Assembly: GCA_009781145.1 (NCBI GenBank)
Contig: WQYR01000002.1
Location: 1 to 46,385 of the forward strand
Direction of reading: 5' to 3'
DNA: 46,385 bases
From: Propionibacteriaceae bacterium
GTDB taxonomy: Bacteria > Actinomycetota > Actinomycetes > Propionibacteriales > Propionibacteriaceae
The notes below the pieces were generated by a model. It was not told where the DNA came from and did not search any database. It saw nothing but the letters and a program-made list of their open reading frames with translations. How positions within the stretch are numbered: the first letter of the stretch is position 1; every line of letters begins with the position of its first letter. Shown here piece by piece: positions 41,854-46,385 of the stretch. The position numbers and the translations under genes are program-made.

Positions 41854-43626
41854 GTGAACGTCGCACAAGCCACCGCACACGAAGTGGCGTACCTGTGGCG
41901 GGCCATCGCTGCCACTCTGCGCGCGCGAGGCTGGACGATTCTGCTGTTGCTGACGCTCGGCTGGGTCGGCTACAACATGACCGTCTTTATCGCCGGGTTC
42001 GTGGCGCCAATGTGGGCGTGGGCCGTCATCCCCATCATGGGGGCCGGTTGCTTGGTGCAGCTGATCGTCACCCTTGCGGCGTATCGCACCGTCATCGAGT
42101 TCGCCCAGGCAAACGACCCTTCCACCCAGTTGCCGCACCTTTCGCTTGTGCCGCTGCTGTCCACGATGCTCGTGCCATTCGCGGCCGCCTACTCGGCATA
42201 TGGTTTCTTCACGGGGTATGCCCGCGACACCGTGATAGCCGCAGGAGCCCTGGTTGGCACCTTCGCTGACGCCGCATTCCTGGGTGACATTAACCCGCTG
42301 GCCTCCGTAACCACCATGGTGATCTGTGTCGCTGTCTTCGTCCTGTTGTGGGTGGCCGCTCGCGTCATCAAGGCAGCGGCCGGCAAGACGGCGTCCCCCG
42401 TCCTGTCGGTGATCAGCGCCTTCGTGTCCAGTTGCAACACCTTTTTGATGCTGTTCTCGATTTTCCGTCTTTCCAGCTACGCCCACACGTGGGCGCAGAC
42501 CCGTGCGTTCATGCAATGGCGCGACACCGCCATCGCATGGTTGACGGGCCTGATCCACATCAACGTCGCCGACATAGTAATGCTGGCCTGGCACTGGCTG
42601 ACGAACACCGCTTGGCCGATGTTTTGGTATGCGCTGTCGCAGCCGATCCTGTGGTTGGCTGTTGTTGCCCTGGTGGGCGGCATGCAGTTCGTCAATGTCG
42701 ACACGGTGTGGTCGGGCATGCGCACCCGGCTGGGCATTCGAGAGCACGAGATCATCACCGGCGTCACAAAGCAGGCCGGGCGTCGCGTCATATCGTCCAT
42801 CAACAACCTTTTGCCCTTCTTCCATCTCTTGTCGGTGATCCTGCGGTCGGGGGCCCCTTTCCTGGCAGTGCTAATTGTCTCGTACGCGGCCGTCGACCAG
42901 TGCGGCGCCTGGCTGAGCATGCTTGTGAAACGCACTATCGGGCCGATCCCGCAACAGTACGTGTTTGCCGTCAACCCTGCGCTGCAATTCGTCGGCATGG
43001 TGGTGACCCCTGGTGTGCTGGCGGTGCTGCTGGCCGCTGCCTACGTGCGCCTGCGTCGCCACGACACGGAAATGAAGCTCGCCCGCGTCCCGTTCAGCTG
43101 GCGGACGCTGGTGGTGGCCCTCGTGGGTATCGGCATGGCCATCGGAGTCACGCTGGTGGTGCCCGGCAGCCCGAACCGACAGGTCGCCTTGACGCCCGAC
43201 ACGCCGGCCACGGTCATGGACGCGACCGTCACCATCAGCGATGTCAGGGTCGGACGGCAAATCACCGGTGTGCTGAACGGGCAGACCGTGACCGACCCCA
43301 TCAGCAGCGTGGGGCTTTTCGTCGCCGTCAACGTCACGGTGACGTCCCATGGCGCATCCAGCGTGCAGATCGCCGCGCAGTCCGGCGAAGTGACATACCC
43401 CAGTTGGGACGGCTTCAGCGCTATCGCAAACCAGGCCGGCTTCACAACCTCACGCGACCTGGTCTTCGAGATCCCATCAGATGGCATTAGTGACGTTTCC
43501 GTCACGATTTCCCCTAACGTCACCCTGTCGTCAACCATCGCTGTGGCCACCTATCAGTTGCCTGCCAACACCGCGATCGCCACCGTCATCAGAGCCAACG
43601 AACTGCCAAAGTCCGAGGTGCCATGA
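41854..43626 (+). CDS. Polytopic membrane protein with C-terminal beta-rich ectodomain, unknown function
   Basis: I do not recognise this 590-residue protein. Residues about 27-445 hold around nine or ten membrane spans in a permease-like layout. The last span (LVVALVGIGMAIGVTLVV, near 435) is followed by a 140-residue outside domain rich in beta strands (VMDATVTISDVRVGRQI, GLFVAVNVTVTSHGASSV), similar in look to DUF4352/Ig-like domains. The GTG start has only a weak ribosome site, so the start is uncertain. It is the first of three genes joined by ATGA overlaps; the other two encode one-span proteins with similar ectodomains, so a three-part membrane complex is likely. Confidence 0.75.
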   Translation: MNVAQATAHEVAYLWRAIAATLRARGWTILLLLTLGWVGYNMTVFIAGFVAPMWAWAVIPIMGAGCLVQLIVTLAAYRTVIEFAQANDPSTQLPHLSLVPLLSTMLVPFAAAYSAYGFFTGYARDTVIAAGALVGTFADAAFLGDINPLASVTTMVICVAVFVLLWVAARVIKAAAGKTASPVLSVISAFVSSCNTFLMLFSIFRLSSYAHTWAQTRAFMQWRDTAIAWLTGLIHINVADIVMLAWHWLTNTAWPMFWYALSQPILWLAVVALVGGMQFVNVDTVWSGMRTRLGIREHEIITGVTKQAGRRVISSINNLLPFFHLLSVILRSGAPFLAVLIVSYAAVDQCGAWLSMLVKRTIGPIPQQYVFAVNPALQFVGMVVTPGVLAVLLAAAYVRLRRHDTEMKLARVPFSWRTLVVALVGIGMAIGVTLVVPGSPNRQVALTPDTPATVMDATVTISDVRVGRQITGVLNGQTVTDPISSVGLFVAVNVTVTSHGASSVQIAAQSGEVTYPSWDGFSAIANQAGFTTSRDLVFEIPSDGISDVSVTISPNVTLSSTIAVATYQLPANTAIATVIRANELPKSEVP

Positions 43627-44261
43627 TGTCGGACCTCTACCCTGCCGCGCCCGACACCACCGCAGCGCAGCCCACCCGTCACCAAAAGTGGCGCCACCGC
43701 TGGACGCTGATTGGCTGGTTAACCGTCCTCGTCGCCATTCTGGCGTGGTGCGTTGCAAACGCCGCGTTCGCGGTGTCGTTCGAAGAACAGCGAGCCAAAT
43801 CCGTTTCCGAGGGGACGGCCTGGCAGACCGACCCTGTGACACTCACCATGAACATGATGACGTACGGAAGCACGGTCACCATACCGGGCCAGGACCCCAT
43901 ACTGGCCGACCCCAACACCGTCTTCGTCGCCGCAGTCCTCGACTACTCTCTGACGAACACAACCGACGACATCGCCTGTGGGATGACTCTTGTGGGGGAC
44001 GGTCGTCAGTGGCGGCCCACAAGCAGTCTGCTTATCGATCAGTTGGTGCCGGACATCGTCAGCGGCTGTCGCACGATCGATAATGACGGCAACCCCATCA
44101 CGGGTGGGCAGATGGGAGCCGTTTTCGAGATTCCCCGCTCGGCCGTTCCGGAGATTCGTGGCGTAGAAATGACGGTGGCAATCGTGGATTTGTCCAACAA
44201 CTGGTCTAGCTTGTACAAGCACCGGACGTGGATAGCGGTTTTGGAAGGAACGGTGGAATGA
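43623..44261 (+). CDS. Single-span membrane protein with beta-rich ectodomain, unknown function
   Basis: The 212-residue protein has a short cytoplasmic N-terminus, one span at about 29-50 (LIGWLTVLVAILAWCVANAA) and an outside domain of about 160 residues. The domain has a strand pattern (TVFVAAVLDYSLTNTTDDI) like those of its two neighbours and two cysteines that may pair. No signal cleavage site is evident. It starts at ATGATG overlapping the upstream stop codon. Function is unknown; it is probably a subunit of a complex with the polytopic protein encoded upstream. Confidence 0.78.
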   Translation: MMSDLYPAAPDTTAAQPTRHQKWRHRWTLIGWLTVLVAILAWCVANAAFAVSFEEQRAKSVSEGTAWQTDPVTLTMNMMTYGSTVTIPGQDPILADPNTVFVAAVLDYSLTNTTDDIACGMTLVGDGRQWRPTSSLLIDQLVPDIVSGCRTIDNDGNPITGGQMGAVFEIPRSAVPEIRGVEMTVAIVDLSNNWSSLYKHRTWIAVLEGTVE

Positions 44262-44866
44262 CCATTCCTCCATTTGACCCGCCTGTCGCAGCGCCCCGCC
44301 GGAAGTCTTGGCTGGCGCCAGCAATCTGGGTAGCCTGCATTGCGGTGGTGGCTCTGGTTGTCGCGGCATTCAACGGCTTCGCGGCAAGAACCGACCAAAT
44401 ACTGACCATCGACCCCGGCACACCGGTGCCGTTGGGGCTGGGGCAGGTTCGCATCGATGATGTCACGCTGCAAGCATCGGCAGGTGGTTACACCTACATT
44501 GTCATCGATGCCGCAGTGAACAACACCTCTGGCCAGCCACTGGTATCAATCTCGTTTGACTATGCCGTTGTCTTGGCCTACACGGGCAGCGACGGAACAC
44601 TTCAGGTGGCACGCGACCCAGTACTGGGCATCATGGACGAAACCGGTCGCGTCTCACCCCGCACCGTCCTGCCACCGATCCCCGGGTTCGTGCCCGTCCA
44701 GTTCACATTCATGATCAGCGAAGAACTAGCCGAGCCGGCACAAGTGACGGTGGCGCTGGTGCCCGTCGTCTACACACAAGACTCGGTGCTCAACACCCTT
44801 CAGGGCAACGCCTGGGTGGATGACCAATCTGTCGGTCACCACTGGCTAGTGCACATGACCGCCTGA
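44258..44866 (+). CDS. Single-span membrane protein with beta-rich ectodomain, unknown function
   Basis: The 202-residue protein has a proline-rich basic N-terminus, one span near 21-41 (IWVACIAVVALVVAAFNGF) and a 155-residue outside domain. That domain repeats the neighbours' pattern: a start strand (LGQVRIDDVTLQAS), then YTYIVIDAAVNNTSGQPLVS, and a late FTFMISEEL strand. I chose the ATG at 44258, which overlaps the previous stop as ATGA and has GGAAGGAA upstream, over the GTG at 44228. No known catalytic motif is visible. It is the last gene of the operon. Confidence 0.78.
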   Translation: MTIPPFDPPVAAPRRKSWLAPAIWVACIAVVALVVAAFNGFAARTDQILTIDPGTPVPLGLGQVRIDDVTLQASAGGYTYIVIDAAVNNTSGQPLVSISFDYAVVLAYTGSDGTLQVARDPVLGIMDETGRVSPRTVLPPIPGFVPVQFTFMISEELAEPAQVTVALVPVVYTQDSVLNTLQGNAWVDDQSVGHHWLVHMTA

Positions 44867-44943
44867 CACGCCATCGCGCTTGCCACCACCAGGCGGCACA
44901 GAGGGCCTGCCTTCGAGCCGTCGAAATGGCCACTTGTGCCGCC

Positions 44944-44949
44944 TATACT
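44944..44949 (+). promoter_or_regulatory. Candidate -10 (TATACT) for a leaderless lipoprotein transcript
   Basis: TATACT ends six bases before the GTG at 44956, placing transcription start at the initiation codon. The same hexamer occurs at 41813. Confidence 0.38.
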
Positions 44950-44955
44950 CATCCC

Positions 44956-45759
44956 GTGCAAAGACACCGGATTACTCGCCTTCTGATGCTTGGGCTGGTT
45001 GTATTGACGGCTGGCTGCTCAGCGACTCCAGCGGCGGGCGGCGGCGCTGATGTCGCCTACCTCGCACTGGGGCTGGTCTTTGTGGGTTTGGCAACGTTGG
45101 CAACGGCCATCGGGTTGGGAAGACGCATGCTGCGTGGCCTCATTCGTCGGGGTGCGCCGTCCGATGCGTCACAACAAGGGTCAGGCAGCCCCAGTGAGTC
45201 AGACATCTTCAGGTATTCAGAGAGCAAAATCAACGCAGGCAATCGCGTAGCCGCCTTCGCTGGCATGGTGGCCGTTGTATGGGTGGTCACTGGTGCAGCG
45301 CTTATGTTCTCGTCACTCGGTGCTTTTGGGTTTATGTGCTTTGCCGCTCCAAAAAGCAGTGGGATCTTTGAGAAGCTGATGTACATAGGCATGATCGGTG
45401 GCATTGCGGCGCCGGTGATATTGCTGGCAGTTGTTGGCATCGGAGTCGGTTCAGTATTCGGTGGGCAGTCGCTCAGCAAATACGGTTTCGTCGTCTCCGT
45501 ACCATTTGCCATCTGGTTCTGGGCAGGCATCCTGCTCTGCAACGTCGGTCATGCTGGCGACGCGACCGAAAACTTGCTCAGTCGCATCGGGACTGATGTG
45601 TCGCTGCCCCACTGGCCGGCCCAGGTGTACTGGGTGGTGATGGCGATGCTGGTCTTTGGGTGGTTTGCACTGCTATCCGAAGCTCGGTCGACGGTCAAGG
45701 TCAAATCCGAAGATCATTCACCGGAACCCGACGCCGCGGGTGAGCAGCACATTGGCTGA
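44956..45759 (+). CDS. Predicted polytopic membrane lipoprotein, unknown function
   Basis: The 267-residue protein begins with a lipoprotein-type signal: basic start, hydrophobic stretch and LTAGC lipobox, with the cysteine near residue 21. Five further hydrophobic segments follow (about 33-55, 95-125, 135-165, 172-195 and 220-240), which is unusual for a lipoprotein, and the tail is acidic. I recognise no family. The GTG at 44956 puts the signal at the N-terminus and is six bases after a TATACT element; the earlier in-frame ATG at 44926 would lie upstream of that promoter. It converges with the adhesin gene. Confidence 0.7.
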   Translation: MQRHRITRLLMLGLVVLTAGCSATPAAGGGADVAYLALGLVFVGLATLATAIGLGRRMLRGLIRRGAPSDASQQGSGSPSESDIFRYSESKINAGNRVAAFAGMVAVVWVVTGAALMFSSLGAFGFMCFAAPKSSGIFEKLMYIGMIGGIAAPVILLAVVGIGVGSVFGGQSLSKYGFVVSVPFAIWFWAGILLCNVGHAGDATENLLSRIGTDVSLPHWPAQVYWVVMAMLVFGWFALLSEARSTVKVKSEDHSPEPDAAGEQHIG

Positions 45760-45770
45760 GCATCATCTTG

Positions 45771-46385
45771 TCAGGCGGGTGTAGTCGCACGGCGGCGTTG
45801 CCACAACAGGGCTGCCCCGGTCAGGGCCATCACTGTTGCTACTAGCATGCCGGCATCAAGGTTGGCGTGGGTACCGCCGGTTTGCACGACGATCGGTACT
45901 GCCGTGTACAACACGGTGGTTTCAACGCTCGCCGGCGGGCAGATGGTCGGTGTTGCCGCGACAGGCAGGACCGGTACCGCGGTGGGATCAGGTGTATACC
46001 CGGCAACCGACGGTGATGTTACAGCCGGATAGTTTGGGCTACTGGGAGCCCCACAAGTGGATACACCGGTGACCAGGTCTGTGGTTTCTTCCCAGGTGAT
46101 AGTTTGCACCGCATCCCCAGGTGTGGCCGCACCGGCACCACGGTAGTGGATCGTTCTTGTCACATCGACGTGGGCGATCGCCATCGCATGTGTCAAGTGA
46201 ACAGTCACCGTTTGAGCAGCAAAAGTGAACACCTGAACATTATCGATACGGTCCAAAACATACTTCGTGGCATCAAACCCGTCAGCCGCATCCGTGGCCG
46301 TGAAACTGAACGCATCACCAGGATTCCCCATGCGGGTTGTCACAAACCTAGACACCGGGGCCACATCCTGATCCAACGTGTCATC
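45771..46385 (-). CDS. Muc_B2-domain surface adhesin, 5' end missing
   Basis: The frame is open to the right edge of the window, so this is the C-terminal 200 or so residues of a longer surface protein. It contains a repeat like the mucin-binding Muc_B2 domain: VTRTIHYRGAG, then DAVQTITWEETTDLVTGVS, then PNYPAVTSPSVAGYTPD. A proline/threonine-rich stalk follows, then VVQTGG, a hydrophobic span (LVATVMALTGAALLW) and an RRR tail. This is the layout of a sortase signal, with VVQTG in place of LPxTG. It may bind host glycoproteins and be wall-anchored, if a matching sortase accepts this variant. Confidence 0.8.
   Translation of the reverse strand, partial: DDTLDQDVAPVSRFVTTRMGNPGDAFSFTATDAADGFDATKYVLDRIDNVQVFTFAAQTVTVHLTHAMAIAHVDVTRTIHYRGAGAATPGDAVQTITWEETTDLVTGVSTCGAPSSPNYPAVTSPSVAGYTPDPTAVPVLPVAATPTICPPASVETTVLYTAVPIVVQTGGTHANLDAGMLVATVMALTGAALLWQRRRATTPA

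Follow-up and report, generated by a model that had tools for sequence, protein, structure and literature searches.

The window, as we call the whole stretch of DNA that was analyzed (46,385 nucleotides of contig WQYR01000002.1 from a Propionibacteriaceae bacterium), carries three co-oriented ORFs, here termed genes A, B, and C. A preliminary description made from the letters alone had proposed that they are joined by ATGA overlaps, and an ORF check bears out both the coordinates and the overlaps, which lie at 43623-43626 (A/B) and 44258-44261 (B/C). The genes and the part of gene A that is treated separately below are as follows.

41854..43626, plus strand: gene A, 590 aa, GTG start; 8-span core (residues ~1-410), anchor span (416-434), and fused ectodomain E1 (~436-590).
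43096..43623, plus strand: E1 part of gene A, comprising the ninth span and the ectodomain; a gene of its own in many relatives, for example at L031:8323-8880 and L037:9281-9880.
43623..44261, plus strand: gene B (E2), 212 aa; N-terminal span and an ectodomain with a Cys pair (C119, C149).
44258..44866, plus strand: gene C (E3), 202 aa, ATG start; N-terminal span (19-37) and a beta-sandwich ectodomain.

An alternative GTG start for gene C is possible at 44228. Sigma-70-like sites (3 versus 1.2 expected) and terminator-like sites (6 versus 3.3 expected) in the region are both weak signals.

This copy of the gene set adjoins genes for an M23 peptidase and a UDP-galactopyranose mutase. Directly 3′ of gene C, an ORF at 44926-45759 encodes an unrecognized polytopic protein of 277 aa with a lipobox-like start (LTAGC); because no homologue of it was found at the first set of related loci, we do not count it as part of the set. 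On the minus strand, 45771-46376 encodes the C-terminal part of a surface protein that reaches the end of the window and carries a Muc_B2 domain (E = 2e-13) together with a weaker mucin-binding domain, which may hint at a mucosal habitat. By eye, positions 2945-40355 form a big surface-polysaccharide region (glycosyltransferases, an ABC exporter ATPase, flippase- and acyltransferase-like proteins, rhamnose genes, and UDP-galactopyranose mutase), and 122-1831 encodes a protein that looks secreted, with three Ig-like repeats that resemble one another and a CAP/SCP-like domain at its C-terminus.

Searches of A, B, and C against Pfam, NCBIfam, and PADLOC yielded no significant family (PADLOC, 0 families), and a sequence search of the PDB with gene A returned no match, in agreement with the preliminary description, which had recognized no family for any of the three proteins. 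The outcome that it had named as damaging, a profile search placing the first protein in a known transporter family, did not occur, nor was any other family assigned. When 22 cores were compared with Pfam, nothing came close to any cut-off, and more remote cores likewise matched no Pfam or NCBIfam family. Neurensin, DUF4307, INV_N, and other Pfam matches (E 0.003-1) were rejected, each being confined to one or two members and far under the cut-offs. The DUF4352 profile (PF11611) reached E = 0.009 with the E1 protein of locus L031 and E = 0.006, under the gathering cut-off, with the best E1 homologue; the window proteins gave no match to it, and every member tested scored under the Pfam cut-off.

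An AlphaFold2 model of gene A (pLDDT 87.6, pTM 0.79) is all-helical to about residue 434 and continues as a beta-sandwich from 442 to 590, and the model of gene C (pLDDT 81) consists of one N-terminal helix (19-37) and a beta-sandwich. The loop charges of gene A fit an N-in protein with 8 spans whose ends are cytoplasmic, a ninth span at 416-434, and E1 outside; by the same charge-based topology, a longer basic loop (275-333) is placed inside. Genes B and C each have one N-terminal span, as judged from sequence for B and from the model for C, in line with the earlier description of them as single-span proteins. This topology fits a location of E1, E2, and E3 outside the cytoplasmic membrane. 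Since the host is an actinobacterium, we read the "outer membrane face" of the preliminary description as the external side of the cytoplasmic membrane.

Foldseek searches of the PDB returned 5bxg as the top match both for E3 (E = 4.3e-6, TM-score 0.62 by target length) and, through its E1 part, for the gene A model (E = 5e-4, followed by 3cfu at E = 0.03). For both proteins, other beta-sandwiches of DUF4352 type follow; among the structures of this kind, 3cfu, 3qfg, 4les, and 2llg are ones that we take to be of DUF4352 type. At rank 4 for gene C stands YxkC, which PDB model 9a4z pairs with the envelope enzyme DacA. A search of BFVD matched E1 weakly to annotated DUF4352 phage proteins (E 0.02-0.13). 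The models of E1 and E3 thus have the extracytoplasmic immunoglobulin-like beta-sandwich fold of DUF4352, and the fold comparison suggested earlier succeeds at the level of structure but not at the level of the PF11611 family score. No convincing fold was found for the core, the significant matches being confined to the E1 part, and the best long-chain alignment for gene A was to GLUT3 (E = 0.29, TM-score ~0.1). An internal repeat in the core was looked for, and none was found. Neither Pfam and NCBIfam profiles nor solved folds therefore place the core in a known transporter, permease, or enzyme family.

The preliminary description had noted by eye that the ectodomains resemble each other. In hhalign comparisons of ectodomain-only profiles (71-82 sequences each, anchor left out), E1 and E2 aligned with a score of 54.6 (E = 2.9e-10, 105 columns), E1 and E3 with 33.9 (E = 6.7e-6, 101 columns), and E2 and E3 with 27.2 (E = 2.2e-4, 109 columns). 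Column-shuffled controls (30 shuffles per pair) gave means of 7.3-8.0 and a maximum of 12.2, and comparisons with the core gave 7.8 for E1 and 9.0 for E3. The resemblance is therefore above chance, and it is matched by the common top Foldseek hit of E1 and E3; the three ectodomains are homologous end to end. With 23-member profiles that include the anchor, E1-E2 reached a probability of 97% (E = 1.4e-10) and E2-E3 92%, mostly over the anchor and first strands, and E1-E3 was weak. The Cys pair of E2 is invariant in 23 sequences, as would be anticipated for an extracellular domain.

Genes A, B, and C represent a single copy of a conserved membrane module with four parts, a core, E1, E2 (gene B), and E3 (gene C), all at one locus. 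In relatives, the core is often a protein of ~450 aa that lacks an ectodomain and is followed by a separate gene matching the C-terminal domain of gene A (phmmer of gene A against L031 8323-8880, E = 6.6e-9), from which it follows that the ectodomain of gene A is a fused subunit. The earlier reading of three coupled subunits had missed this fusion, with which the system has four parts. Iterative profiles recovered E1, E2, and E3 at 23 of 23 close loci and the core at all 22 loci on intact contigs. A fused core-E1 gene occurs in a 14-row clade and at loci L038 and L062, and other loci have E1 as a separate gene; E3 is encoded on the opposite strand in most relatives, unlike in the window.

Tandem duplications of the whole block occur at L021, in the genome that the window comes from, and at L027/L042 in Desertihabitans. 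At L021:6581-12679, on contig 37, two whole modules (A+E1, E2, and a convergent E3) stand in tandem downstream of what by eye resembles a Tad-type-pilus cluster (an ATPase and two TadB/C-like membrane proteins). A fourth module copy of this genome, truncated by the end of contig 118 (L022:3-2147) and 40% identical over the matched C-terminal part, adjoins a gene for a predicted rifampin ADP-ribosyltransferase (Arr-ms).

Of 98 related genomes, 45 contain homologues of gene A, and the 2-Mb genome to which the window belongs has four copies. A contig scan with gene A alone as the query gave no match, and a narrower alignment did give matches. The core profile was positive in 142 of 393 genomes of the order and in 50 of 297 genomes of the class; in the same 393 genomes, E1 was found in 145 and both parts in 135 (Fisher p = 5e-83, uncorrected for phylogeny). 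Core and E1 also occur together at 20 of 20 remote actinobacterial loci, mostly from other families; 17 of these loci have a recognized E3 and most have a separate E2, the usual layout being E3-E1-E2 convergent with the core. Together with the presence of the parts at all close loci, this makes the conservation of the gene set strong, the point on which the preliminary description had proposed a genome search. The set is also present in Planomonospora and Mycolicibacterium. In Xanthomonas (L076/L077) and Achromobacter (L078), the order is E3-E1-E2-core in one direction, with E1 at E = 5e-12 to 6e-11; E3 is weak in Xanthomonas (E = 2e-3, or recognized only as E2-like) and better in Achromobacter (3e-7). 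These proteobacterial cores, from four loci in all, fall inside the actinobacterial tree, a nesting that suggests horizontal transfer. Several near-complete Propionibacteriaceae genomes lack the module, so its function is dispensable. Distance-matrix covariation beyond phylogeny, with dnaN and gyrB as controls, was as high for core-recF as for core-E2, and gave no signal for core-E1.

The preliminary description had missed that, in this family, the module usually resides at oriC. At 13 of the 20 first neighbour loci, the module lies at oriC between dciA and gyrB, in the order dnaA-dnaN-gnd-recF-dciA-[module]-gyrB-gyrA, with the oriC genes named by Pfam in L031 and by phmmer at the other loci. 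A scan of named genomes added 27 dciA-[module]-gyrB loci, four of which repeat earlier genomes, giving ~36 distinct genomes. Auraticoccus, Desertihabitans, Microlunatus, Enemella, Micropruina, Aestuariimicrobium, Granulicoccus, Propionicicella, Tessaracoccus, Propioniferax, and other genera have this arrangement, which is typical for most Propionibacteriaceae loci and for a sister family with 7-10 Mb genomes. Relative to this usual site, the module is an insertion and contains no replication gene. At the dciA-core junction in L034, L030, and L031, the two genes are co-oriented and are either separated by a short gap or overlap in their reading frames (the latter in L034), and the core at oriC may be co-transcribed with recF-dciA.

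The copy in the window, in contrast, and those of the other families sampled lie away from oriC. Within the window's genus, the dciA-gyrB interval at L114, L115, and L119 is without the module and the oriC genes are intact, a check that leaves out L113, the short gyrB contig of the window's genome. In a quick tree of 75 cores, some of whose branches are long, gene A falls in a ten-copy clade (SH-aLRT 99) with no oriC genes seen beside its members, and this clade is sister to the oriC copies of Auraticoccus and Desertihabitans. The simplest story would be a single core-E1 fusion in the ancestor of the 14-row clade, with oriC left afterwards. Neighbours of the off-oriC copies vary by lineage (for example, GlnR, LmeA, and rhodanese genes in Streptosporangiaceae), and no conserved neighbour pointing to an envelope pathway was found across the off-oriC loci examined. 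The large-genome sister family has a second, more distant off-oriC copy (L110, L071, L072, L096, L101, L103, and L105), whose neighbours are common to the Streptosporangiaceae copies (rhodanese, DUF4395, thioredoxin-like, 5′-nucleotidase, and GlnR-type regulator genes).

Across 81 core ORFs, P264 and W267 are invariant, and Y113, W213, R217, G333, and G363 are conserved at 90-95%. Three charged positions, E192 (71 of 81), R327 (72 of 81), and R169 (R or K in most), stand at 83-89%, and the copy in the window has lost all three. E192 is replaced by S or Q in most of the off-oriC clade; R169 and E192 are both lost in the window, L021, L023, and L033, and R327 in the window and L023. Loss of R169 is confined to copies that also lack E192, a pattern that hints at a paired interaction between these residues. 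The module may have diverged in function after leaving oriC, to judge from these substitutions.

It is likely that the core, E1, E2, and E3 form one complex, given their co-occurrence, their synteny, the gene fusion, and the duplication of the block. The 8-span core would act as a membrane scaffold that holds the three homologous single-span subunits, DUF4352-like beta-sandwiches outside the cytoplasmic membrane, together on its outer face, with E1 fused to the core C-terminus in the window's lineage. There the sandwiches would bind an enzyme, lipoprotein, or polymer of the cell envelope, so that the whole would serve as an assembly or adaptor complex. We prefer this role because DUF4352-type domains are small extracytoplasmic modules and because YxkC has been modelled with DacA in the PDB; taken by itself, the adaptor role is put forward tentatively, as a possibility short of an even chance. 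As a whole, the reading that we favor, and consider probable, is a hetero-oligomeric membrane complex with three outside DUF4352-like domains that may serve as an envelope adaptor.

The main rival would place the core in a new family of transporters or channels, for a solute, lipid, or polymer precursor, with E1-E3 as substrate-binding or gating subunits. A polytopic core with conserved charged residues (R169, E192, R327, R217), the invariant P264/W267 pair, and three accessory ectodomains would suit such a protein, and known transporters with accessory ectodomain subunits share the general architecture of a polytopic core and single-span extracytoplasmic subunits, though only that. Unlike these, the module core matches no transporter in sequence or fold, has no internal repeat, and has no consistently linked ATPase gene; most copies in the clade of gene A have lost E192, often together with R169, and two have lost R327, which would be odd for a coupling site. 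We regard a transporter as unlikely, if still the nearest competitor. Less probable again is a membrane sensor, in which E1-E3 would bind an outside ligand and the core would signal inward through the basic loop 275-333: the external domains and the one longer cytoplasmic loop fit, but a cytoplasmic signalling domain is lacking, and genes for a kinase, sigma factor, or anti-sigma factor are not conserved adjacent to the module across loci.

The position behind dciA, in the same direction, in so many distinct genomes might instead point to a replication-linked system anchoring the oriC region at the membrane. Yet copies of the window and of the other sampled families sit off oriC, the ectodomains face outside, the window's genus keeps its oriC genes intact without the module, and the oriC position may merely reflect expression level; we give this explanation very little credence. 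An accessory defence or interbacterial-immunity module is equally improbable. Its patchy presence, the four copies in a 2-Mb genome, and the likely horizontal spread to Xanthomonas and Achromobacter would be in keeping with such a role, but no PADLOC profile assigns the genes to anti-phage defence, no defence neighbours were seen, and in most of the family the module holds a stable syntenic position at oriC.

Like E1-E3, the DUF4352 (PF11611) proteins whose fold E1 and E3 share (5bxg CD630_09570, 3qfg, 3cfu YjhA, the YxkC of 9a4z, and annotated phage proteins) are extracytoplasmic and single-anchored. The module differs from them in that its three paralogous sandwiches accompany a polytopic core to which one is fused. 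The literature searched, mostly open-access texts, described no DUF4352 system that includes a core of this kind, and its coverage of DUF4352 and of recF-gyrB insertions gave no description of the module. With no family, no core fold, and no published account found, the earlier proposal of a candidate undescribed system holds: the module is undescribed in Pfam, NCBIfam, the PDB, and the searched literature, and its cellular role could nevertheless prove ordinary.

It is a serious possibility, which we rate slightly below an even chance, that the module represents a new class of widespread envelope machine, in which an 8-span core with a fold absent from the PDB would assemble an extracellular heterotrimer of DUF4352-like sandwiches, ancestrally at oriC in Propionibacteriales, and would work in both Gram-positive and Gram-negative envelopes. 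The gene set is kept as a unit across actinobacterial families and some proteobacteria, with neither a Pfam or NCBIfam name nor a solved core fold. With four genes, invariant residues, and cultured hosts (for example, Micropruina and Microlunatus), it is a defined target, and it gives DUF4352-like domains a system context.
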